NCBI GenBank assembly: GCA_943704525.1 | Contig: CALSCQ010001724.1 | Span: forward strand, 1-21,536 | Source: Pigoraptor vietnamica | Taxonomy: Eukaryota > Opisthokonta > Filasterea | Reading direction: 5' to 3' | DNA length: 21,536 bases | Shown here: positions 5,130-21,536 of the stretch, one piece after another | Numbering within the stretch: the stretch's first letter is position 1 | Layout of the letters: each line of letters begins with the position of its first letter | Translations under genes and position numbers: made by a program | The notes under the pieces: model-generated | What the model saw: only the letters and a program-made list of their open reading frames with translations | The model's database searches: none | Told to the model about the DNA's origin: nothing

Positions 5130-6453
5130 ATGCTCGCGACTCGCCTCGCTCGGGTATGTGCTGTGTCTGGTGCAATCTAACTTCGCTTCGTGCGGGGCCG
5201 TTACAGTTCTGATGTCGTTGCGCTTATCTGCCAGTCCGCGCGCCCGCTCGTCCGCGGCTATGCTGAAGCTGCGGCTGCTGCTGCGACGGCCACGAAGAGG
5301 GTCCCCAGCCTCAACAGCGTGACGAAGGATGCCGATCCCAGCGGGAGGGGTGGGAGAGTGTGGACATGCGCCCTGCGTCGTTGACCCGAGGCAGTAGCAG
5401 CAACTCATGAATTTCCCGTTTTTTCTTATTTTCACGTGGCGATCGAGCAGCGCCCCAGCACATGAACAAGGTGACACTAATGGGGTACGTCGCCACCGAG
5501 CCCAAGAAGATCAGCGACACGCTCTTCCGCATGCGCATCGGGACGTCCATCCAATACACGGACAGTGAGTGGCAGGGCATCGCAAGCGCTACGTCGTGCC
5601 TTGATGGTCGCTGTTATGTGCCGTGTCCTTGTGTTCCTGTCAGTCTTGTGGATATGTTGACGTCCATGGATTCGACGAAACTCTTGAATAGTCTTTAAGC
5701 ATCCGTCGTTGTCATTAACAGTGGATAGTGAGCATTCCGTCTCTCATGGCCCTTTTCGTGCGTGTCTCCCCCGTTGTCTTCGTCCGCTGCAGAGGCTTCG
5801 AACAAGCCGAAGGTCAAGACGCAGTACCACAATGTCACGCTCTCCGGCAATTTCGAGAAGCTGGCCGAGTCCCTTCGCGTCGGTTCGCAGTTGAACCTCG
5901 AGGGTTCTCTGGAGTACTCGGCGTACGAGAAGAACGGACAGCACGTTGAGACGAGCAATGTCGTCGTGCGGAACTATGGTGAGTGTGCCGTTGTCGCTTA
6001 TATGCGCGTACTCACCGGCACGAGTGTGGCCGTTGTCGCTCGATATGCGCGTACTCTCCGGCACTCTCTCTCCTCACTTCAGTCGATGGGGGTTCCATTC
6101 CCATAATATGACGGCCACGAACTGGTCTTTCCCTCACCACTTCCGTAGCCCATCGCATCCTGTTACTTCCCTCTTCTCCTTGTTGTCGCGCTCTGTCCCC
6201 GTGAGCGTGTGGTCGATGGCTGCATGTGTATGAATTTTACGCTGATCGGACATCTTCCTTGTCTTGAGCTGCGTCGTTTTTCGCGTTGAATGCATCCGAC
6301 TTTTTCTTTTTGTGTGTGTGTGTGTGCGCGCGCGCGCTGATGGACAGTCATCGTGAGGGTGTTCACACTGTTGCGCTCGTTTCTCCCTCCGCAGAGGACC
6401 TGCGCGTGACCAAGTGGGCTCCAAACCCCAACGCCAGCAAGCCCGCCGCTTAA
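5130..6453 (+). CDS. SSBP1: Mitochondrial single-stranded DNA-binding protein
   Basis: Five exons: 5130-5153, 5235-5349, 5451-5564, 5793-5978 and 6395-6453; phases close and give 498 nt (165 aa). Residues 1-25 (MLATRLAR joined to SARPLVRGYAEAAAAA) form a basic, Ala-rich mitochondrial presequence with an RGYA-type cleavage site. The OB-fold begins at MNKVTLMGYVATEPKK, continues with LFRMRIGTS and KTQYHNVTLSG, and includes VGSQLNLEGSLEY and TSNVVVRNY, as in SSBP1 and bacterial SSB. The C-terminus KWAPNPNASKPAA lacks the bacterial acidic DDDIPF tip, as usual for mitochondrial forms. The 24-nt first exon ends at a GTATGT donor, and its intron has a CTAAC branch-like site near 5175. Exon 2's donor is uncertain (5349, or 5318 with a different acceptor). 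Starting at ATG 5462 would lose the presequence. Role: coats ssDNA during mtDNA replication. Confidence 0.92.
5981..6064. repeat. Two-copy tandem repeat at the 5' end of SSB intron 4
   Basis: Unit 1 (5981-6021) and unit 2 (6022-6064) share GAGTGTG, CCGTTGTCGCT, ATATGCGCGTACTC and CCGGCAC, with a few substitutions and a 2-nt indel. Unit 1 starts inside the GTGAGT donor of exon 4, so the duplication copied most of the splice-donor neighbourhood. The second copy lacks the GT and reads CGAGTGTGG. Confidence 0.9.
6311..6339. repeat. (GT)n-(GC)n alternating purine-pyrimidine tract
   Basis: A short (GT)n run passes directly into (GC)n inside SSB intron 4 (5979-6394). Alternating GT and GC dinucleotides are the classical Z-DNA-prone composition. 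The tract lies about 55 nt before the 3' splice site. Confidence 0.85.
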
Positions 6454-7212: not shown

Positions 7213-8132
7213 ATGATGGAGTCCGCGGTGGGCGGTTCCGCCCTTCTCTCGCGGCCGATCGAGGGCGGAAACGAACCCGCGCCGCTCGTGGAGAGCCAAG
7301 CATTTGAGAAGCCGCGCTCTATTTCTGGCAGAGATGCGCGTGCGGAGGCGTCGCATGTTCCCGTCACGACCCCTCCGTCGGTGCCTGGCGCGCACGAAAC
7401 GCCGTCCACGCACGTTGAAGAGGGCAAGGGTGGGGATGACGACATAACGGACGTGACGCCAGAGGAACTGCGTCGGCGCAGGCAGTGCTTTGGCGCGCTG
7501 TTCGTGATGGTAGCACTGCTCAACTACGACTCTGGCGCGATCCCGTCGACGCTGACGCAGCTGAGCGACCACTTTAAGCTCGGCTTCTCCGAACAGGGCC
7601 TCGTCGGGTCGCTCGTGTACATTGGCCTCAGCATCACGAGCCTTTTTGCGGGTGTGTGCCTTTGCATTTGTGTGTCGTGCGTGCGTGCTTGCGCGCTCGT
7701 GTTTGTGTGCGTGCAATGCTCGTGAGTGTTGTGTGCGTGCATGTTTATGTGTGCGTTTGTGTGCGTGCATGCCACACTGTGTTTGTTATTTAACGCGTTT
7801 TTATTTGTTGTACTCATTCTTGGTCACGTGCCTTGGATCTCCGCCCTCCCGCGGTCTCACTCACGCCCGCACGCACGCAGGCTATCTCTTCCAGCGCTTT
7901 GACGTGAAGCCCCTCCTCCTCGTGAGCATGGTCTTCTGCGTGGGATTCGACGTCATGTTTGCCTTTGCGCCGAACAAGATCTCCATCTTCGCCGCACGCG
8001 TCGGTGTCGGTCTCTCTCAGGCGCTCATCATTATCTTCACGCCCGTGTGGGTCGACGAATTTGCGCCCGCCGCCCGACGCACCATGTGGATGTCGATTAT
8101 TCAGGTGAGACTGCAAGATATGTCTGTGTGTG

Positions 8133-8214
<82 letters not shown>

Positions 8215-10467
8215 TGTGTGTGTGTGTTTGCGTTTGCGTGCTGGGTCATTCCTGCTTGCTGTTTTATTAGTGCCGTACGTATTGTGTGTGTGTGTGTGTG
8301 TGTGTGTTCGTGTGGATATTGTCCACTAACAATTATTCCCCTCCTCCTCCTCTCCCCCCACACACACAACCACACACACACACACACACACACACATAAC
8401 ACACACACACACACACGCATACGAAAACGCAGGCTGCAGTCCCCGCCGGCATCATGCTCGGATACCTCGTCGGCGGCATTGTTACTCGTTACACGTCGTT
8501 CAACTTTCGCACGCCGTACGTCGTCCAGCTCGTCCTCCTCGCACCCTTCACCATCGCCATGTTCTTCGTTCCCAAGTCGTACTTCACGATTACCACAAGC
8601 GCCGAACCCGAGTCGTCCGACGGCCTCCTCGACGCCCAACAGCAACAGCAACAGCCATCCGCCCAAAGCGCACACTACGTCCCGTTCAAAGAGGAGGGTG
8701 AGCACGTCTCCCCAGCACCGTCCCCGGCGGTCGAAACAGCACACGGGGAGGCGCGCGTGCGCACGTTCACGGTCGCTTCTCCAGGGTCCATTCTCATCCA
8801 ACCCATCGGTTCGGGCGAAGGCGCGCATGCGTCCGCATCTGGCCGTGTGCGCCGCGTTCGCATCGACTCTATCAGCGCGTCCGCCCTCCGCCGCGAGTCC
8901 GTGCGACCCCCTCGCCGCCCGTCTCCCATGGGCATTCCCGGTGAAAGCGTGAACCCTCCGCGCCGTCGGTCGTCGCCACTGGCGGGCCAGACGACGGGTG
9001 AGTCCCTTCTGCAGCAACAGCTGGACGCCCATTTGAGCGCGGACGCGATGGCGGCGAGCGCGTCGTCCCTCGCACCGCCGGCGTCGACGGATGCGCCGCA
9101 CGTTGAGGTGTCGGCGGTGGGGGACGGCGGCGAAGGAAAGAAGCGCCGGAAGCGGGCGGGCGGCGATACGCTCAAGTCGCAGGTCGTCTACCTGCTGAGC
9201 AATAAGATATTCGTTCTGACGGTGTTTGGGATGTCGGCGCTTTATTTTGTGGTGACGGGCATCCAGTTCTGGTGAGTGCGCGGGTCCTTGCTGGCGATGT
9301 GCGTAGGTGTGTTGTGTGTGTGAATGTGTGCGTGTGCGTGCGTGCGTGTATCTTGCCTCTGCGCACACACGCGTGTGGGATACGCCGCTTATCTCTTTTT
9401 GTGTCATGCGATTGCGCAGGATCACGCGCTATCTGACCGATGTCATCAAGGTCGATCTCACCGTGGTGCTCGTCGCATTCGGAGCGACTTCGGCCACTGC
9501 GCCCGTGTCCGGCGTGTTCTTTGGCGGCTATGTCGTCGACAGGCACGTGTGCATTTTCTCCCTCGCTGTGACTCGTGTCTTGATGGCACCGCGTGTGTTT
9601 GTGTACATATTGTGTACATATTAAGCAGTTGCTCTGGTGCAAACACACGCTGTCGATTCCCGCAATGCCCCTTTCCTCTTTCCTCTCTTTGAGAGAGTCG
9701 ACGGGCTTTCAACACCTACGACTTCCCACTGAACTGTTGTCTTTCGTTCCTTTGCGAGCAGGCTCGGCGGCTACAAGGGACGGCGCGGTCTCAACGTCGC
9801 GTCCAAGGTCGGCTCTGTATTTGGGCTCGTGGCCGTCATGTGCGCGGCGCCCATCTGCGTGATCAAAAACTTCTACGGAATCATCGCCTTTATTTGGGTC
9901 CTCCTCTTCTTCGGCGGCGCCATTCTGCCACCGGCGACCGGCATCCTTCTCAGCTGTGTGCCGATGCACCTGCGCTCCCTCGGCGCTTCCATCAGCTCGC
10001 TCTTCTACAACCTGTGCGGCTATTTTGCTGGCCCGTTCATCTCTGGACTTGTCGCCAGCGCCACGGACGACCTCGAGTGGGGGTTCCGGCTCGTCATGAT
10101 GTGGAGCGTCTTTGGACTGTTGGGCATGTTGGGCGCGTGGTACTTTGCCCGGTTCGACCACCGTCACGCCAAGCGCGCCGCGCTCAAGGCACCCGTTACA
10201 GAGTCGACGTCGAGCCTCGTCAAGCCGCTGCTCGGCGCGTCGGAGAGTCAGGAATCGCTGCCGGCGTTCACCGAGGGCGAGAGCGTGCGCATGGCGGGTT
10301 CGACGGCTTCTGCGGTCTCGCAGCGCGCGCAGCATGCAGTGCCTGTGATCGAGGTGGAGGAGAACGGGGACGAGACGGAGGAGAGCGGCGACGAAGCCGT
10401 GACCAAGAACGACGTTGTGTATGAGTTGACGCGCGCGCAGACGCAGCGGCGAGTGTCGTTCTTCTGA
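7213..10467 (+). CDS. Spinster-like major facilitator superfamily transporter
   Basis: Five exons: 7213-7651, 7881-8104, 8433-9271, 9420-9542 and 9762-10467; phases 1, 0, 2, 2 close to 776 aa. A 90-residue cytoplasmic N-terminus ends in a basic ELRRRR stretch. TM1 (CFGALFVMVALLNYDSGAIP, about 92-112) carries the N-Y-D position typical of Spinster-like MFS proteins. Helices follow in exons 1-3 (for example ISIFAARVGVGLSQALIIIF and VVQLVLLAPFTIAMFF). A long polar loop, about residues 270-468 and rich in Ser, Pro, Gln and basic residues, separates the two six-helix halves. The second half (FVLTVFGMSALYFVVTGIQF through FRLVMMWSVFGLLGMLGAWYF) is followed by a 90-residue acidic C-tail. Spinster relatives move sphingolipid or lysophospholipid cargo by proton coupling; the substrate here is unknown. 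Intron 4 uses a GC donor. The start may follow a 5' UTR intron. Confidence 0.88.
8121..8420. repeat. Paired (TG)n and (CA)n microsatellites in MFS intron 2
   Basis: The intron 8105-8432 holds (TG)n at about 8121-8227 with a short CGTG interruption, a second (GT)n at about 8284-8307, and (CA)n at about 8358-8417. The two repeat types are on the same strand and are complementary to each other. The first begins 16 nt after the 5' splice site; the last ends about 15 nt before the 3' splice site. Confidence 0.95.
9543..9761 (+). other. Non-canonical GC-AG intron in MFS gene
   Basis: Exon 4 ends GACAG and is followed by GCACGT. The next exon must start with one base completing an Arg codon (AG+G), which joins FFGGYVVDR to LGGYKGRRGL in the MFS frame. 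A GT at 9547 would give the wrong phase. A strong CAG upstream of the GC is typical of GC-AG donors. The acceptor GCGAGCAG at 9761 is canonical. Confidence 0.75.
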
Positions 10468-10694: not shown

Positions 10695-11466
<772 letters not shown>

Positions 11467-11669
11467 TAGTTGGGGAGAGAGAAAGGGAGAGAGACCAAAA
11501 TCGGCTCACAGTGTCATCATACACCTTGACGATCGTATAGGTGTATGATAGCCCTTGGTAACGATCGTCGTTACTGGCGTTACAAAAACAAACGAAAACA
11601 GACAATTGACGTTCGTCGTGCCATCCATCTCAACACGTCCGCACTTCCGCCAGCGCCCTCTTCGCCACG

Positions 11670-14600
11670 ATGCCTCCCCTCGCACGCGCCCTGCTGCTTC
11701 CCCTGCGCCGCATAGCCCATGTGCACCGTTGGCAGCCTTCTCACTTCACGGCGCCGTTTCGCTCGGGCGCTCTGTCGCGTGCGTCTGTCTGCGCATCGCG
11801 TGACGGCGCGAGGGCCGTTTCGTGGCGGTGCGTCTCGACTTCGGCGTCCGCAACGTCTGTCAATATTGTAGATCTGCTGATGACTTATGGCGATAACAAT
11901 GTGGAGCTCGCAAAGCTGCTGTGCGACAGGTGCGTGCTTGTGTGTGAGAGTGCTCGTGCTGCTACTTCGCGTCCCGTTGGAATGCATGACACTACGGACA
12001 CGCACACACGCACGTGCACGCACGCATGAAGAAGCGCTCCAGTGCATGTCATTGCGCACATGCACGCACGCACGCACCTCGCACACACACATGCACTCAC
12101 ACGCACGCACGCACACGCACGCACGCATGCACACACGCACATGCATTCACACCCACGCACGCACACTCGCGCACCCTCTCTCACGCACACTTTTAGTAAG
12201 CGAAACTAATCTTGTCACACACTCCGATCTCCCTCAGGCACGCGGACGCAGACGCGACCAAAATCGCCGTGCGTTGCGAGGACCAACACGGACACTCGCG
12301 CGTCCTCACTTTCTCCGAACTGCGCGACCTCTCCTCCTCCTTCGCGCACTTTCTCGAGCACGAGGCGGGCGTTCGAAAGGGCGACGTCGTCGCCGTCCTC
12401 CTTCCTCGCGGCGCAGAACTCGCCGTCGCCGCAGTGGCCGTGTGGCGGCTCGGTGCCGTTTATGTTCCTCTCTTCTGTGCGTTTGGCCAAGATGCCGTCG
12501 AGTACCGCCTCGTACACAGCCGCGCCAAAGTGGTTATCACGGACGCCGCCAACAGGGGCAAGATTGGGATACCCGCCATGCGCTCGAATGGCGCTGCGTT
12601 GGACGACGCGCGTCTCTCTCCCTCCGAAGACGGCGGTGTGGGCACTGCGGGAAGGCGGCGCCGCGCACGTGAGCACGCGTCGCCTGCAAGTGGCAGCAGT
12701 GGGAGCGGAGTGATACTGGACGCGCCCCTTACGCCGCCGCAGGGCATCGCTGTTGTGAACGTGTCGCTCCATGGCGATGCAGACCCTTCGGTGGGAGACT
12801 ACGCCTTTTGGCCGGCGGTGGAACGCAACAAGGCCCGTGGAGTGCGTGCGCCGGCCGTCGTCGAGGGGGAGTCCCCGCTTGCGATTGTGTACACGAGCGG
12901 GACGACGGGAAAGCCGAAGGGTGTCGTTGTCCCCGTGCGAGCACTCGCGTCGTTTGAGATGTACATGCGGGACGGCCTCGAAGTGAGGTGGGCGCCTTGA
13001 TTGGGGATATGCTCGCGTGTGCGGCGTGTCGTGTCGCCGCACGGGAAATCGACTCGTAGCACCGTTGTTACGCAGACACGAGTGTACACTGCACGAACAC
13101 TCGGAGGCACTTTCCACACAGACGCAAATGTGCGCACAGCGCACGTACGCACTCTCACACTCACACACGCCAAAGCGAGTGCGTCATGCATTGTTACTCA
13201 GCTTCATCTTACGCATTGGCGCAGGCCCGATGACCGCTTCTGCAACATGGGCGATCCCGGCTGGGCGTGAGTGTCGGACTAGCACAGTACACACACTGCC
13301 ACTTGTTTAATCTTTGGCCTTTCGGTCATCTTTTGAGTGCGTGCGAAGGTTGTGTCTCCTCATGCGTGCATCTGTCCGCAGATACGGCCTCTACTACGCA
13401 CTACTGGGCCCCCTCGCCCTTGGCACGACGACCGTCTTCGTCAACGCGCGCTTTGAGCCGCACCGGTGCCTCGAAACCATGCGCAAGTACGGCATCACGA
13501 ACTTTGCCGCGGCGCCCACCGTGTACCGGTCGCTCCGCGCGGCACTCGTCGTCGCCGACGGCAGCGGCCCCGTGCACAAGCTGCGGCGCGCGTCTTCCGC
13601 AGGGGAGCCGCTTGAGCCCGAGGTGGCGCGGTGGGGCGAGGGCTTCTTTGGCGTTCGGATCCGAGACCACTACGGGCAGACGGAGTTGGGGATGGTGGCG
13701 GGACAGACAGGGAAGGACGCGCCCTCGGAACAGCACGTGGATGCGCAGGGCGGCGAAGGGGCATCGATGGGCCGCGCACTGCCGGGGTTCACTCTCGCTG
13801 TCGTCGAGCCAAGCGAGGAAGAGGCGCGCGCTGCTGCGGCTGCCGCTCCAAGTGGCGAAAAGGACGATGGAGAAGCGGGCGTGCATGTGGAAGGTCCCGG
13901 GGCCACGGAAAGGGCAGACGGAACGGCCGGCGAACTCGCGGTGGACGTCGGCAACTCGCCGCTTTTCTGGTTCAGGGGTTATCTGTCGGACCCGGTCAAG
14001 TCGGCGTCGCGTTTTGGGCCGCGTGGGCACTATCTCACCGGCGACGTCGCTTACAGGGATGCCGCGAGTGGCGCGTTTGTGTTCACCGGGCGCGCAGACG
14101 ACGTCATCAAGACGTCAGGGCATCGCGTGGGCCCCTTTGAGGTTGAGAGGTGTGTGGTGGCCTGCGTACACGTAGCTCGCTTGTTACTGATGCAAAGAGG
14201 GAAGGCCCCTTGCGTGTTGTTCGTCGAAGACAGCCAAAATCAATCGTGTGCGCTTGCCTTCCTTTGTACTATTCTCTGACCGCTTGTCACTTTGTGGTCT
14301 CATTTCTTCCCCCGTCCCCGGTCCCTCTTCCGTTTTCAGCGCGCTGGCTGCACACCCGCGCGTCGCAGAGGCCGCGTGCATCGGCGTGCCGGACGACGTC
14401 AAGGGCCACGTGATAAAGGCCTACCTGGTGCTCGCGCCGCACGCACACGCCGAGCCGCAGCACAGCGCCGGCGACGGTGAACACCACGGACGCCACTCGC
14501 ACGCGCACTCGCGACTGATCGACGAACTGCGCGCGGCGGTGCGCGTGGGTGTGGGTGCGCACGCCATTCCGCGACACTTTGAGATATGCGAGTCTCTTCC

Positions 14601-14679
14601 CAAAACGCCGAGCGGAAAAGTGCAGCGCAACGTCCTTAAAGCAATGCACGCCGAGGCAAGCAAGGTACCGCAGCGATAG
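11670..14679 (+). CDS. Mitochondrial acyl-CoA synthetase, ACSM/AcsA-like (AMP-forming)
   Basis: Five exons: 11670-11929, 12238-12987, 13225-13266, 13382-14149 and 14340-14679. All three internal introns before exon 5 and the last are phase 2; total 719 aa. Residues 1-60 are basic, Arg/Ser/Ala-rich and lack acids (MPPLARALLLPLRRIAHVHR), a mitochondrial presequence. Family motifs: P-loop-like YTSGTTGKPKG (about 305-315), GDPGWAYGLYY, HYGQTELG (447-454), YLTGDVAY, FTGRADDVIKTSGHRVGPFE, and the C-terminal PSGKVQR with the catalytic lysine at residue 700. The enzyme converts a carboxylic acid, ATP and CoA to acyl-CoA, AMP and PPi. The spacing and ADDVIKTSGHRVGP best fit medium-chain/ACSM and acetyl/propionyl-type enzymes. 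Low-complexity insertions occur in the N-domain (Arg/Ser/Gly, about 210-260), near 500-550, and as a His-rich loop near 640-665. Exon 3 is only 42 nt. Substrate chain length cannot be read from sequence. Confidence 0.92.
11999..12175. repeat. CA/CG-rich degenerate microsatellite in ACS intron 1
   Basis: The intron 11930-12237 opens with GTGCGTGCTTGTGTGTG at the donor. It then passes into alternating CACG/CACA units that end about 60 nt before the acceptor. On the transcript the 5' side is UG-rich and the 3' side CA-rich. Confidence 0.9.
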
Positions 14680-14963: not shown

Positions 14964-16379
14964 CTACACGCGGCTGGCACCCGGCTTGTCCTGAGGTGCT
15001 GCGTACGGCGACTCCTGCGGCAGCGAATACAAGTCCTGCTCAGCCGTACCCTTCTTGGTCGGACGTGCGTACGCCACCGGTTCGTTGTCCCCAGTCGCGA
15101 CGTAATAGTGCGATCCTGCGGCAGCGGCCGTGCCCTGTGGGGTCGCATACGACGACGACGCTCCCCCCTGCGGCGTCGCGTACGCCATCCCTCCCTGTTG
15201 CGGGTCGGCGTACGCGCTGCCCATCGGATCGTACAGTGACATGTTGCGCTGGCCCTGCGGTGCCGAGTACCCGCCCTGAGGCGCCGCATACGCATCCCCC
15301 GCCTGGGGTGCGGCATAATCAGCCCCACTCCCTTGCGGCGCAGCGTAGCCAGTTCCCTGAGGGGCAGCGATTCCCTGAGGGGCAGCGTAGCCTTGCGGCG
15401 CAGCATAGCTGGCAGCCTGTCCCTGCGGTGTTGAATAGTTCGCCTGCGGAGACGAGTAGTCGTTGCCGCCGGGCGTTGCGTACGTCGACTTGACGTGGGG
15501 TGTCGAGTAGGCCGACGCGCGTTCCTTGCCCTGTGGCGCAGAGTACCCGTCGCCCCCCTGCGGCGTCGAGTACGCCGACGCGCGCTGCGGGGTCGAATAG
15601 CTCGACTTGTGTGGGTCGAGATACCCGCCAACCTCGGCGTATGTGTCCTCGTCCTTTGGGGGACGGTTTCGCGGCGTCACTTCAGCGTAGTGGTCCTCGC
15701 TCTCCGCGCCGCCAACAGCCTCGTACGTCGGGTTGGCGTTCACGTGCACCGACGTCTTTCCTATCTGCGCGTATGTGGGGTCTGCGAGCGAGTCCATGCT
15801 CATCGATGGCTTGATGACGGGGTTTGCGTTCATCCCGCTCGAGTTTTGCCTGCGAGTGAAAGAGGTGTTGTAAGCGACGCTGAAGGGACTCGCCCTCGCA
15901 TACACGCGGGTTACAGTACGGTGGACGCGCAGCGGAGTGTACGTGAATAAACAAGTGGCAATATTCACATGTGCGCAAAAATGCATACAGTGTGCGTGCA
16001 CTGATGGGCACCGACCAGGGGGTCAGCTCCGTTAGTACGATCCCCGAGTTGCGCTTGACGAAATCGGCCCTGATGACAAAAACAAGTGTGGTTTGAGTGC
16101 GCGCCAACAACGCGAATCGTTGTTAAAAAGAACATTACATGACATGGATTGCAATGTACACGACAACATCACAGGCGCAACAGCTCGCAGGGAAGTGCGC
16201 AAAAGGGAGACCCACTTCTGCTGGCGCTTGGAGCGGACTTTCCTGCAACGCGAGGGCCGCGAAAGGCTTGTTAGTGATGAAGCACATAGAGCCCCTCCCG
16301 CGCTCACGCGTGGGCCATCTCATGCAGGGAACAATTACAGCACATACGCAACACGCACACACACGCGCGCGCGCATACG

Positions 16380-16413
<34 letters not shown>

Positions 16414-16464
16414 CACATACACACACGCACACGCACACACACATACACACACGCACACGCACGC

Positions 16465-16529
<65 letters not shown>

Positions 16530-18141
16530 GACGCACACTTCGCTCGCGCTCACCTCGCCACAAAGTATCCCACGAGACACACGACGACGACGCCTCCAGC
16601 AGCACCGCCCGCAACGGCGGCCATCGGGATTCCGCCGCCACCTTTGCTCTGCGTTCCACCACCGCCAATGTTGTTGCCGGTGCCCCCGTTCCCGCCATTT
16701 CCGCTCCCGCCGTTGCCACCCCCGCCGCCTGCATCGCCACCGCCACCGCCGCTGCCACCCGTCGCAGACGCCGCAGGCGTTACAGTAGTCGTCGGTCGGT
16801 TCGACGAAGCGGGGCCGCCGGGTGTGCTGGTACCCGCGGGAGCGCCCGTTGTCGCGGTGGCGGCGAAGGTCGTTGTCTGCGCCACGGCCGTCGTGGAGGG
16901 CGGTTCGGGCGTGTACGTGCGGTGAGCGCGCACGGAACTCTCCGATTCAGCCGCGATTGCGGAGCTTGACGAGAGAATGTTCCTGATCGAGGAGAACACC
17001 AGCGCAGCAGAGCTCGACGATACGGCCGCAGAGCTTGCAGACGCGACGGCCGCTGCGGTTGCCGAACTGGCAGACGCGGCGGTGGCTACTGTCGCCGAAC
17101 TTGCCGACACGGCGGCGAGTGCGGACGACGTGGAGAGGAGGCGACGGGCGGCGGCGCGACAGTCGTCGATGGTCAACGCGGTTGCGTCGGCAATGCACGT
17201 GCAGTTGAGCGACAGCATGTCACGCTGGAAGCCTGTGGCGCAGAGGCACGCGGTGCGGTCGGGGCTCACGGACTGCGGAGGGGGACGACTGGGGCGTCAG
17301 TACGTGTACGTGGCTAATGTCACACAATAGCATGCGACGATCAATTCAACCGAAAAAGAAAGATAGAGACATGTGACCTCTCGTTCTCTTTTGTCCATCG
17401 ACTCCACAGAAATGAAGAGAGAAATCAACTGGCAAAGTGAGAGAAAGACGGAGAGGGCGCCAAAACGTGGCTGACACTCGCCTGCGCAAGTCCAGAAGGG
17501 CAGTCGAGGCACGCGGATTGCGCCTTGTCCGGCTGAAATTTCTCAGGCGCACACGGGGTTCGCACGCCGTCGTTGCACGAATAGCCCGCAGGACACGCTG
17601 GAGTAACGAGAATGGCATGTGCCGATGAGATCGCATGCACCATCCAAAAGTATGATCGACCTCGCACACGTGCACACACATGGCATTCACGCACGCTACG
17701 CACGTCCAATATCATACATCGTAAACAGTGCGTGCGGAACACAACCACACTCGAAGTCTCGAAGAGAAAAAAAACGGCAACGGAGACCCACTTTCGCACG
17801 ACCCGCTGTTGTTCCAGTACCCAGCGATGCGGCACACGCACGCCGACAGCGCCTTGGCCCCCGCAGAAAGGGTCGTCGTGCCGACTGGACAGTCCAGACA
17901 CGACGTCTTGCCGGTGGAAGGCTGGTACGTACCAGTGCGGCAACTCGTCACGACGCCGAGCACGCAATATTCGCCGGCGCCGCAGTCTTCCCGAGGGTAA
18001 GAGGGACAGCGTCAGGATGCACGCACACGCACGGTTCGTGTCCACGCAATGCACTCGCGCACAGACACACACGTACACACACACACACACACAAAAGCAA
18101 TACACGCACACACACACAAAGGCAATACACGCACATACACG

Positions 18142-18223
<82 letters not shown>

Positions 18224-20561
18224 CAAACCGAGCCCACTCACCCACGCACGTCGTCCCCGACGCGTCCGACTTTTGTCCGTCGGGGCAAATGCAGCGCGTG
18301 TTGCCGCTTCCAGCTGGCGCCGATACATCCGGGGCGCCCACAAGGGGGGAAGGGCACTGGCGACAGGCGATCGTCCATCGCGGCGTGTTCGTAAAGTCAT
18401 TGCCGAGACAGAGCTCGGGCTTGGTCTGTCCAATGGTGCGGCACGTCGTTCCCGCGGGACACTCTGCAAGGAGCACACGCGTAAACAGCGAGCCCACACG
18501 CACACACACAGCGAAGGTGGATATGAACGCCGTCGGCCGCGCACGCGCGTGTGGAAAAAGATGCCGCACGATGAATGCGGCTGCACATAACGGCTTAGCA
18601 AGGCGATTGTAAGGCACACAGACACCCACGGACGCAGACGCCGTCGCTTCCCAAGTACGTGCCGAGCACGCAATAACACTGCGTGCGGTTGGTGGCCGCC
18701 GTCGTTGCTGTCGTCATGAGCTTTTTGCTGTCGCACGGAGTGCACGTCGTCGCACCGGGGACGTCGTTGTAGGACCCCTTCTCGCATGCAATAAGCTGTC
18801 CCGCGCTGCAACGGTACCCGAGCGGGCACGCTGTGCGCAGAGAGACGGCATTAGACGCAGCCACGCACAGAACACAATCAGACGTCTGCCCACGCCACCC
18901 CAACACACACGCGCGCACACGCCCGCACACAGATACTCGCAGACACACCCACTCACATACAAAAACTCGCACACGCATACACACAGACACACATAGAACA
19001 CACACACACGCACACGCACACACACAGACATACACAGAACACTCCCACGCACACAACACACACACGCCCCTGTGTCTCCAGCGTCACGCACCAATGCAGA
19101 ACTCGGTGGCAAGGTTCGCAGTGCCGCTGTACTTAGACGTAATGTACAGGCCGTCGTTGCATCGGCACTCGGGAAAGGATGTCGCGTCGGCGCCCACGGC
19201 GGTTGGCGGGCACACAAAGCAGTTGCCCGACTGGAGATAGAACCCCTTCGGGCACGACGTCAGCGCACCCGTGCACGTGGCACCGGGCGGACAGGCTGCG
19301 AGTCACGTGAGAGTGCTTAGCGTCCGTGCATGGGCGACAGTGGGACTCGCGTGTGAAGGCGCGGGAAAGTAAGGCTCGAACAACTAAGTGAAACCAAACG
19401 GGGTGGAACATCGCTCAAACAGCCACGGGCGCACGATGCAGACTGAGCCGCCGACCACTGAAGCGAACGAGGGAGTGGGGAGCGCAAACTCCGCAGCAGC
19501 GAAAATGGAATAGACGCAAATACATGACAGTGGCAAGGAGGGAAACTCACGGGCGCAGAGCGTCTGGCCGGTCGGGAGGTAGTAGCCCTGCTTGCAGAGG
19601 CACTGGTCCGCCGAGGTTGCACCGGGATTTGTCGAGCTGTTAGGGTCGGAACACGCCGTGCACGACGACTGTCCCGTCAGCGGCTGGTAGGTGCCGGCGG
19701 TGCAAGACGCCGACATGCCGCTCTTGCAGAAGGAGCCCGCGGCGCACACTGCGAGTGTGTCCGAGTTAGTGTAGCGACTGGCGGCCTCACATTGCAGTGG
19801 AGTGTGCACACGACCACGTGCGCTGTGCGGTTCATTACAGCGGTGTGTGTGTGTGTGTGTGTGGAGGGGGGTGGGGAGGGGGGGAGATCACAGTACTGGA
19901 TTGCGAGCGGGACCATGCGCGTTGTGCAATTCTTGACAGTCCACGCAACTCACGTGCGCACACTCGATTCGTGTAGTCGAGGTAATAGCCGTCGTTGCAA
20001 ATGCAATCGGCGAACCGTGTAGACCCCTGCGCCGCCGTCTTCGAATTCGCGGGGCAGTTGTTGCACGTTGAGGACGCGATACTGTCTTGGTACGTGTTCT
20101 GCCCGCACGGGACTTCCACGTTGTTGGGGCACATGTAGCCCACACGGCATGCTGCGCCGTGAGTTCGTGCGTGTGAGTATGTGCGAAAGTGTGCGCGTGC
20201 GTGCGTATCGGCTTAAAAGTGAAACGATAACAAAAATGGGACGGTTGGGCGACCAGTGAAAAACCGGATTGCCAACAAAAGGAGAAAAAGAACAACTGCG
20301 CACCGGAGAGGGAGGGGGGGAGGGGAGGGGGAGGGGGAGAGGGAGGGGAGAGGGAGAGGGGATGGCACACATAGTGACCGACCCTGTGTATCATCTCACC
20401 ATTGCACCCGAACGTCGTGCACGTGTCCGTCTTGCACTGCGGCACATAGCCCGGGTTGCACGTGCACGTCTGCGCGTTGCAGTTGGGGGCGCCCAAGGCG
20501 TCGCACAGCTCGCTCGGATGCAGGACACCGTCTCCGCACACTGCGCCATGGGAGAAGCAAA

Positions 20562-20608
<47 letters not shown>

Positions 20609-21267
20609 GGGGGGGGGGGGGGGGGGGTATTTTCTCAGCCTATTTTCGAACAACGAGGCTCAGAAGGTTTGCGGCTTCAGCGCACGTTTTCCCACCAGGA
20701 GGTCGCGTGCTGTTCTCACGACCCCAATATCAGTAGGAGCAACAAACTGGTGTCACTTCTCTCCCTCAGTCGCTCACCTTGCGGGCACCACGCAGCGCTG
20801 TTGTACCTCGTCGCAAACACGCACGTCGTCTGCTTGATCTCCTCAGGCATGAGCAGCTTCTTCACAACAAGCAGCTCGCGCATCGTCACGCACGACGACT
20901 TCGTGGTCGGCACGCCGGCAATCGTTCCGGAGCACGTGTAGTCGCTGCAGTCCGTCGTGCACGTACCGGGAACGCCACCGAGGACGGGCGGCGCGGGCAA
21001 AGGCGTCGACTCGTCCAGCGCGGTGAGCGAAAAGTCGGTGCTCTTTTTCACGCCGTCCACCCATATCGAATACGTCGACTGAAACGCGTCCGTAATAACA
21101 GAGACGAGGTGGAGCACGCGCGTCCCCTTGTTCTTGTCGTTCGTGATCCAGTCCGTGCACGGCCAGTACGTCGTCGGGTCCCCCCCGAATATTTTAAGGT
21201 CAATCTCATCAAAGCTGGCGCACACGCGGTACTGGACGTTGTTGCCTGGGTTCATCTGGAGCCCAAT
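14964..21267 (-). CDS. Single-pass receptor: LamG-like, Cys-rich modules, TM, poly-YxxP tyrosine tail (5' partial)
   Basis: Twelve exons in phase: 21267-20778, 20540-20400, 20151-19954, 19748-19551, 19295-19092, 18830-18630, 18463-18242, 17986-17792, 17597-17482, 17272-16554, 16069-16016 and 15849-14964 (1207 aa). Exon 1 here is a LamG/concanavalin-like domain (VLHLVSVITDAFQSTYSIWV, then DG). Next is CGDGVLHPSELCD (myxo-repeat-like). About seven and a half modules of about 66 residues follow, CPxGxxC...GxYxxxxxxxxCxxC...CxCxxGYY...C, the GCC2/GCC3 or ephrin-receptor-like type. An Ala/Ser/Thr and poly-Gly stalk, one TM (AAVAGGAAGGVVVVCLVGYF), a basic stop-transfer ARADFVKR and the tail complete it. 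The tail has 27 Tyr: four YxxI/V near the membrane, one NPTY, and 20 YxxP. The 5' end is outside the window. Likely a plasma-membrane receptor signalling through tyrosine phosphorylation; the ligand is unknown. One intron has a GC donor. Confidence 0.9.
15003..15623 (-). repeat. Coding repeat: Y-[AST]-[AST]-P-Q-G-like units of the receptor tail
   Basis: Degenerate units of about 8-15 codons, most centred on Tyr-(Ala/Ser)-(Ala/Thr/Ser)-Pro-Gln-Gly, recur from the YLDP site to the final YAAPQ. The DNA shows matching recurrent CCCTGCGG/CGCCGC words on the plus strand, but synonymous sites vary. The repeats therefore look old and kept for their peptide, not freshly amplified. One unit (IAAPQG) has lost its tyrosine. 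Confidence 0.9.
16341..16528. repeat. (CA)n microsatellite in receptor intron
   Basis: CA/CG repeats lie inside the intron 16070-16553, directly downstream (on the transcript) of the donor that follows the membrane-segment exon. The transcript therefore has a long UG tract beginning about 25 nt after the 5' splice site. Confidence 0.95.
17015..17113 (-). repeat. Three tandem 33-nt repeats encoding an Ala/Ser stalk
   Basis: Three consecutive 11-residue units read AVSASSATVAT, AASASSATAAA and VASASSAAVSS in the extracellular stalk of the receptor. The shared core is xxSASSA. They give a flexible or helical Ser/Ala spacer with many possible O-glycosylation sites between the last cysteine module and the poly-Gly segment. 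Confidence 0.85.
17273..17481 (-). other. Non-canonical GC-AG intron in receptor gene
   Basis: The exon ends GGACTTGCGCAG and is followed by GCGAGT, close to the GC-donor consensus CAG|GCAAGT. The next exon (acceptor CTCCGCAG) begins in phase 0 with SVSPDRTACLC, which completes the cysteine module LDCPSGLAQ. The only nearby GT would break the phase. Confidence 0.72.
18050..18219. repeat. (CA)n microsatellite in receptor intron
   Basis: CA repeats with AAAAGCAATACACGCA interruptions cover about 18063-18145, then perfect (CA)n runs from 18146 to 18218. They lie in the intron 17987-18241. On the transcript this is a UG tract starting about 20 nt after the GTGAGT donor. Confidence 0.95.
18903..19075. 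repeat. CA-rich microsatellite in receptor intron
   Basis: Interrupted CACA/CACG/CAGA repeats fill most of the intron 18831-19091. The transcript again carries a UG-rich tract next to the donor at 19091. Confidence 0.92.
20308..20362. repeat. G-rich GGGGAG tract with quadruplex potential
   Basis: Many runs of three to six G separated by one to four A/GA bases lie on the plus strand, inside the receptor intron 20152-20399. The receptor transcript carries the C-rich complement just after its 5' splice site. A similar shorter tract (GGAGGGGGGTGGGGAGG) occurs near 19862-19886 in the intron 19749-19953. Confidence 0.85.
20563..20627. repeat. (TG)n followed by a G20 homopolymer
   Basis: A (TG)n run (about 20563-20605) is followed by 20 consecutive G (20608-20627), inside the receptor intron 20541-20777. 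The transcript reads C20 then (CA)n, ending about 20 nt before the 3' splice site, so it could act as an extended pyrimidine-rich region. Homopolymers of this length are error-prone in assembly. Confidence 0.95.
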
Positions 21268-21536
21268 CTGCGCACGGCATTGTCGAAGGCGTTCGCACGT
21301 GCGTGTGAAGGAGATCAATAATGCTGGTGCAGAGTGCGTGCGGTGAAAATAAACGACTACAGTCACGACTCTCGCATGCACCCACACAAAACACACATCC
21401 GGCATGTCCGTTTCGTAAGGGAGTCACCGAGGGGGACGGGCATGCAGGTCCGCACACGCACAAGCACACACATATGATTGTCTCTGCACGACAGTCGCCG
21501 AGTATCGGGGCGAAAGAGGGCGGGGAGGGGGTTGGG
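21268..21536. other. Receptor intron or upstream sequence, right edge
   Basis: On the minus strand this precedes a CGCAG acceptor at 21268 with the LamG exon in phase 0. It therefore should be intron, at least in part. A GT-rich patch (minus-strand ATGTGTGTGCTTGTGCGTGTG, about 21450-21475) could follow a donor, but no upstream exon could be recognised. A G-rich run closes the window (21517-21536). Confidence 0.45.

Follow-up and report, generated by a model that had tools for sequence, protein, structure and literature searches.

The minus strand of the window carries a receptor gene whose tail contains 20 YxxP motifs. The window is the complete contig C704, 21,536 bases long, and belongs to an assembly of 32.5 Mb in which signalling genes of animal type, with introns, are present. 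The product is probably a single-pass receptor of a unicellular animal relative, probably a filasterean, in which an Ephrin_rec_like ectodomain is joined to a cytosolic tail that would function as a multisite phosphotyrosine docking array for Crk-type SH2 domains, with ligand binding or clustering leading through Src-type phosphorylation, Crk and DOCK to actin.

Architecture of the receptor gene

The gene model was built by hand on splice sites that follow the consensus, one of the donors being GC, with phases that agree throughout, and comprises 11 exons encoding 1189 residues; the 5′ end is missing, a start codon and signal peptide were not found for the receptor, and the contig stops at position 21536. 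From the N- to the C-terminus, the protein consists of an unassigned domain, Cys-rich exons, a Ser/Ala and Thr/Pro stalk, a Gly-rich linker, a transmembrane (TM) helix and the tail. The exons and the intron listed below are those of the gene model, with any further source in brackets:

20778..21267, minus strand: most 5′ exon of the model
20400..20540, minus strand: Cys-rich exon, VCGDGVLHPSELCD...
19954..20151, minus strand: Ephrin_rec_like exon (also domain match)
19551..19748, minus strand: Ephrin_rec_like exon (also domain match)
19092..19295, minus strand: Cys-rich exon
18630..18830, minus strand: Cys-rich exon
18242..18463, minus strand: Cys-rich exon
17792..17986, minus strand: Ephrin_rec_like exon (also domain match)
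17482..17597, minus strand: Cys-rich exon with a GC donor (GCAG/gcgagt), which is a GC-AG intron boundary rather than GT-AG
16554..17272, minus strand: exon with the last Cys-rich segment, Ser/Ala and Thr/Pro stalk, Gly-rich linker and TM helix
15850..16553, minus strand: intron separating the TM exon from the tail exon and containing long (CA/TG)n
14964..15849, minus strand: tail exon, with a juxtamembrane part carrying four YxxI/V-type tyrosines, then the YxxP array and a stop at the end (also motif table)
15624..15849, minus strand: juxtamembrane part, with DPTYAQIG, NPTYEAVGG, DHYAEVTP and DTYAEVGG (motif table)
14994..15623, minus strand: array of 20 YxxP, consensus Y-[A/S]-x-P-Q-G, the last P codon ending at 14994

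A Pfam scan of the 1189-residue model found five Ephrin_rec_like stretches in the Cys-rich exons (E 6e-22) and a sub-cutoff GRP match, and nothing else. The most 5′ exon (20778..21267) is without a Pfam match and, judged by eye, looks like a laminin-G-type fold. No kinase domain was found in the model by the same scan and the tail terminates in a stop, unlike a receptor tyrosine kinase. The TM helix (residues 875-893, VAGGAAGGVVVVCLVGYFV) is the most hydrophobic 19-residue stretch of the model and lies in the exon 16554-17272. The gene model thereby joins Ephrin_rec_like repeats, TM and tail, in agreement with the single-pass receptor with a cysteine-rich ectodomain that had been described in advance.

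The junction between TM exon and tail exon spans about 700 bases of repeat-rich intron (15850..16553), and retention of this intron would give a stop directly after FVAR, right after the TM. The tail exon might therefore be thought to derive from another gene or isoform and to be unjoined to the TM, and this is highly improbable: the splice sites are of consensus form (donor CGAG/gtgagc, acceptor tcgcag/GCAA), the phases match, and the second gene described below has TM and array in one open frame, which therefore supports the two belonging together.

The window also contains a protein fragment with two PDZ domains (1719-2492, minus), a single-strand-binding-protein-like frame (5732-6106, plus), frames resembling a major-facilitator/sugar transporter (7565-10467, plus) and a protein kinase fragment with an HRDVKPNN loop adjoining a long CA/TG repeat (10999-11505, minus). 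An AMP-binding enzyme gene of several exons (12200-14679, plus) is convergent with the receptor gene, the two ending approximately 285 bases apart. Very long (CA/TG)n microsatellites are present in introns of the window, for example at 16380-16530 and 18090-18225.

The YxxP array and a second receptor-like gene

The receptor tail has 295 residues including the split codon, and 20 of its 27 tyrosines stand in YxxP. The array noted in the preliminary description is confirmed by motif count, and its span 15003..15623 runs precisely from the first YxxP tyrosine codon (15623-15621) to the last (15005-15003) on the minus strand. Proline is found at +3 for 20/27 tail tyrosines and for at most five at each of 15 other offsets between -8 and +8, while 20,000 shuffled tails contained a mean of 2.9 YxxP and a maximum of 10. 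The four juxtamembrane tyrosines (YAQI, YEAV, YAEV and YAEV) differ in type from YxxP and could serve a Src SH2 or the SHP-like phosphatase; NPTY in this part also matches the PTB ligand form NPxY. No Pfam domain was found in the tail.

When the core of the array was used as a query against the genome, contig C428 was found (E 0.0077, 48% identity), which carries a second receptor-like gene:

7854-10049 of contig C428, minus strand: receptor-like open frame of 732 residues (L048, G000:C428:5000-14000)

This single frame encodes a mucin-like Thr/Pro stalk (TPTTGAP), a Gly-rich linker, a TM helix, RRRR and a YxxP tail, and no Pfam family was matched by it or by five upstream frames (two of them overlapping). 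The RRRR right after the helix is a stop-transfer, positive-inside signal and would therefore place the tail inside. The receptor of the window has one TM helix with the YxxP repeats on one side and the Cys-rich repeats on the N-terminal side. The C428 tail has 14 YxxP among 23 tyrosines, with a fifteenth YxxP of the frame upstream of the tail; proline occurs at +3 for 14 tyrosines and for no more than three at other offsets, and 20,000 shuffled tails gave a mean of 2.0 YxxP and a maximum of 8. The other 9 of the 23 tyrosines are without proline at +3, several reading YAxAG, and P at +3 is not universally kept in this tail, so that the code is imperfect.

When the 34 motifs of both tails are pooled, +1 is A or S in 32/34, +4 is Q in 27/34 and +5 is G in 19/34, and D at +1 is found in none (0/34). 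The two receptors have different ectodomains and flanks and the same grammar, Y-[AS]-x-P-Q-G. The tail of the first is rich in A, G, P, S, Y and Q and has variable spacers, as might be expected of a low-complexity Y/G/Q/P-rich sequence that clusters or condenses through its tyrosines as aromatic stickers, with no SH2 docking. Such a role is improbable, as it does not require P at exactly +3, yet 20/27 and 14/23 tyrosines have it there and it is rarer at the other offsets tested; SH2, kinase and PTP domains are also present in the genome.

Since repeat expansion might yield such a register, the codons of the units were compared. Among the 10 units reading YxxPQG, in which Q and G are invariant by the choice of units, pairs differ at the third base in 53% for Y, 62% for P, 36% for Q and 69% for G. 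The tandem runs that Tandem Repeats Finder detected in the array are all short, with units of 18 and 27 bases in 2 to 3 copies, and recent duplication therefore does not explain most of it. These runs are what an array arisen as a by-product of tandem-repeat expansion, without selected function, would be expected to contain, and such an origin is very doubtful in view of the third-base differences at invariant Y, P and G codons (53 to 69% of pairs), the irregular spacing between motifs (6 to 26 residues) and the same grammar within different flanks in C428. Signs of selection on Y and P, of which the preliminary description had spoken, are seen in the variable third codon positions at invariant residues, and such selection would be the simplest account of the array.

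With the receptor tail as sole query, no match at E <= 10 was obtained from the protein database, in a search that scored the 8000 candidates with the largest number of shared words and had no self-match control. The full receptor gave 39 matches, every one listed with PF07699; the highest YxxP count in any of these proteins over its full length is nine (P0035, 1869 aa), compared with 20 in the receptor tail alone. The second-best match, P0002 from Opistho-2 (30% identity across 42% of the query), terminates in a Gly-rich stretch without a TM in the hydropathy scan. Opistho-2 is Pigoraptor chileana (PMC9492541; PMC7147346), which is a filasterean. A filasterean is also the likely source of the genome studied here.

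Within the genome, protein searches scoring 8, 5 and 8 candidates did not find a third array, and more may exist. Contig C328 was rejected, its match lying in a frame of ACYSTSEGT repeats rather than YxxP, as was C1188, which matched the C428 tail but has no array in the frames examined. The sister Ephrin_rec_like genes at three loci of C728 and C577 have no open reading frame longer than 150 aa with more than three YxxP, a survey confined to these loci, with C128, C1050, C472 and others outside its scope. Among 57 loci (251,276 bases, overlaps counted), at least five YxxP in one open reading frame were found for the two arrays and the tyrosine phosphatase locus L043 alone. The latter (G000:C1192:22711-26391) has a long frame with 6 YxxP in 953 aa, of which five are in the last fifth and two read YxPPQG.

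Phosphotyrosine proteins of the genome and candidate readers of the array

Profile searches of the genome gave 27 exon matches for SH2, 81 matches for SH3, 16 for PTP and 177 for the kinase model PF07714, which also picks up serine/threonine kinases. From neighbouring matches, the domain orders SH3-SH2-kinase (C68 and C972), SH2-SH2-PTP (C1247), SH3x3-SH2 (C388), SH3-SH2-SH3 (C1253 and C699), SH2-SH3-SH2 (C1251) and SH2-SH3 (C367, C305 and C1154) were read. The preliminary description had made its proposal depend on tyrosine kinases and SH2 proteins, and both are present in the genome, together with Crk.

The SH2-SH3 gene on C367 is best read, from its sequence, as Crk. Compared with PDB sequences, its SH2-SH3 part scored highest with CRKL (124.5 bits) and next with CRK, followed by GRB2 (112.9 bits, 6 to 12 bits behind), and for its later SH3 CRK ranked first, over CRK's C-terminal SH3. 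Alignments with Crk-type proteins cover as much as 87% of C367, and the two best E-values of the search, better than those of the Crk proteins, belong to NCK2-like proteins, for which the BLASTP alignment has a coverage of 21%. For the SH3-SH2-kinase gene on C68, a designed Src/Abl ancestor came first, with Fyn and Src as the best natural matches, and a DOCK DHR-2 match is present on C725. An Abl kinase could not be singled out, the best match of C972 being the designed Src/Abl ancestor (240 bits), then ABL1 and BTK approximately 2 bits apart; YAAP also resembles the favoured peptide of Abl. The reading of C388 as Nck comes from its domain order, its SH2 being a better match to RasGAP and SHP2 than to NCK.

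With these proteins, ligand binding or clustering of the receptor would allow a membrane Src-type kinase to phosphorylate the YxxP tyrosines, and the resulting pY-[AS]-x-P-Q-G sites might avidly recruit a Crk-type SH2 adaptor in multiple copies. Through the SH3 domains of this adaptor, DOCK and other GEFs would reach the membrane and there influence actin. This mechanism is modelled on DCBLD1/2 and on ITC data for the choanoflagellate Crk SH2. That the tail is cytosolic and phosphorylated is inferred, as are the SH2 protein that binds it and the effects downstream.

The receptor might also be as proposed and its array be read chiefly by another SH2 protein, such as the Nck-like C388, the adaptors of C305 and C1154, or the kinase's own SH2 in processive phosphorylation. 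Several SH2-SH3 proteins are encoded in the genome, and candidate readers beyond Crk include the SH2-SH3 genes C305 and C1154 and the SH3x3-SH2 gene C388; the +4 Q and +5 G common to the two tails might be an adaptation to some other reader. The Nck SH2 favours D at +1, which is absent from 34/34 motifs, and the better match of the C388 SH2 to RasGAP and SHP2 likewise argues against this gene. The Abl SH2 is reported to bind pYxxP sites in DCBLD2 as well (PMC6029619), while YxxP is the Crk consensus and is bound by the choanoflagellate Crk SH2 (PMC5043372), so that another chief reader is rather unlikely and a Crk-type adaptor is preferred.

Relation to known YxxP proteins

Five choanoflagellate TM proteins with cytosolic YxxP repeats have been reported, namely S. 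rosetta PTSG_05573, PTSG_12435 and PTSG_12436 and M. brevicollis A9VAL3 and A9V449, and TM proteins with YxxP repeats are mentioned for Capsaspora as well (PMC5043372). According to the same report, the choanoflagellate Crk SH2 binds pYxxP peptides in ITC, two of them from an S. rosetta TM protein; PTSG_05573 has 10 YxxP, five of which are covered by the tested pYDVP peptides; and YxxP-rich TM proteins were proposed to link Crk to the membrane (PMC5043372). Similar to the receptor here, in which the array is probably cytosolic, these proteins combine cytosolic YxxP repeats and a TM in a unicellular animal relative with Crk in the genome, and A9V449 shares a cysteine-rich receptor-type ectodomain (PMC5043372). 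In contrast, the choanoflagellate peptides tested read pYDVP, whereas both tails here have A or S at +1 and never D, and three of the five proteins are described with SH2-like domains near the C-terminus (PMC5043372), while the receptor here has 20 YxxP of the form Y-[AS]-x-P-Q-G, an Ephrin_rec_like ectodomain and a tail without Pfam domains.

The vertebrate TM receptors DCBLD1 and DCBLD2 have eight YxxP each, seven of them intracellular in DCBLD2, and are reported to bind the CRKL SH2 after phosphorylation by Fyn/Abl, for which avidity was proposed (PMC6029619). They resemble the receptor here as one-piece TM receptors with a multisite YxxP docking tail, a likeness by description, and differ in their CUB, LCCL and FV/FVIII ectodomain and eight YxxP (PMC6029619); these three domains are absent from the Pfam matches of the 1189-residue model, in which the 5′ end is missing. 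The earlier view that such arrays are solely cytosolic in animals is not supported beside these receptors (PMC6029619). Nor is the novelty of a receptor-borne array, with the choanoflagellate proteins already in print (PMC5043372). Because of both cases, the receptor is not a new kind of protein; new here are the two receptors as a pair, the number of motifs they carry and the code they have in common.

In p130Cas/BCAR1, a dense YxxP array recruits Crk, with 15 motifs in human and 6 to 25 across bcar1 orthologs, and the protein is cytosolic, with SH3, Ser-rich and FAT-like domains (PMC2689226; PMC5043372). Both have an array of several YxxP, and the 20 of the receptor exceed those of human BCAR1 (15), PTSG_05573 (10) and DCBLD1/2 (8) but fall within the bcar1 range of 6 to 25. 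The N-terminal SH3 of Cas was not found by the Pfam scan in the 1189-residue model, whose 5′ end is missing, and the C-terminal FAT-like (CAS_C) domain is absent from the receptor, whose C-terminus is complete. The motif text of p130Cas is Y[DQ]xP, against Y[AS]xPQG here. Taken as descent, the 'p130Cas-like substrate domain fused to a receptor' of the preliminary description is not supported, the motif text being different, with no +1 D in 34 motifs, and CAS_C was not found in the genome in a search without a positive control. A resemblance to p130Cas in working is likely.

A bolder reading, possible and offered tentatively, is that pY-[AS]-x-P-Q-G is a dedicated docking code of this lineage. 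One array module would be placed on unrelated ectodomains (Ephrin_rec_like in C704; in C428 a mucin-like stalk and unknown domains), with a single SH2 adaptor that co-evolved with it as its reader. This would be a kinase-free 'Cas on a receptor' system that might have arisen independently of Cas and DCBLD in animals.

The two receptor-like genes, whose 20 and 14 YxxP are nearly identical, offer direct candidates for receptor-borne docking that can be tested, as the genome also encodes Crk, Src and DOCK. They suggest that several unicellular lineages had multisite Crk docking on receptors, either earlier than the soluble Cas scaffold of animals or in parallel with it.
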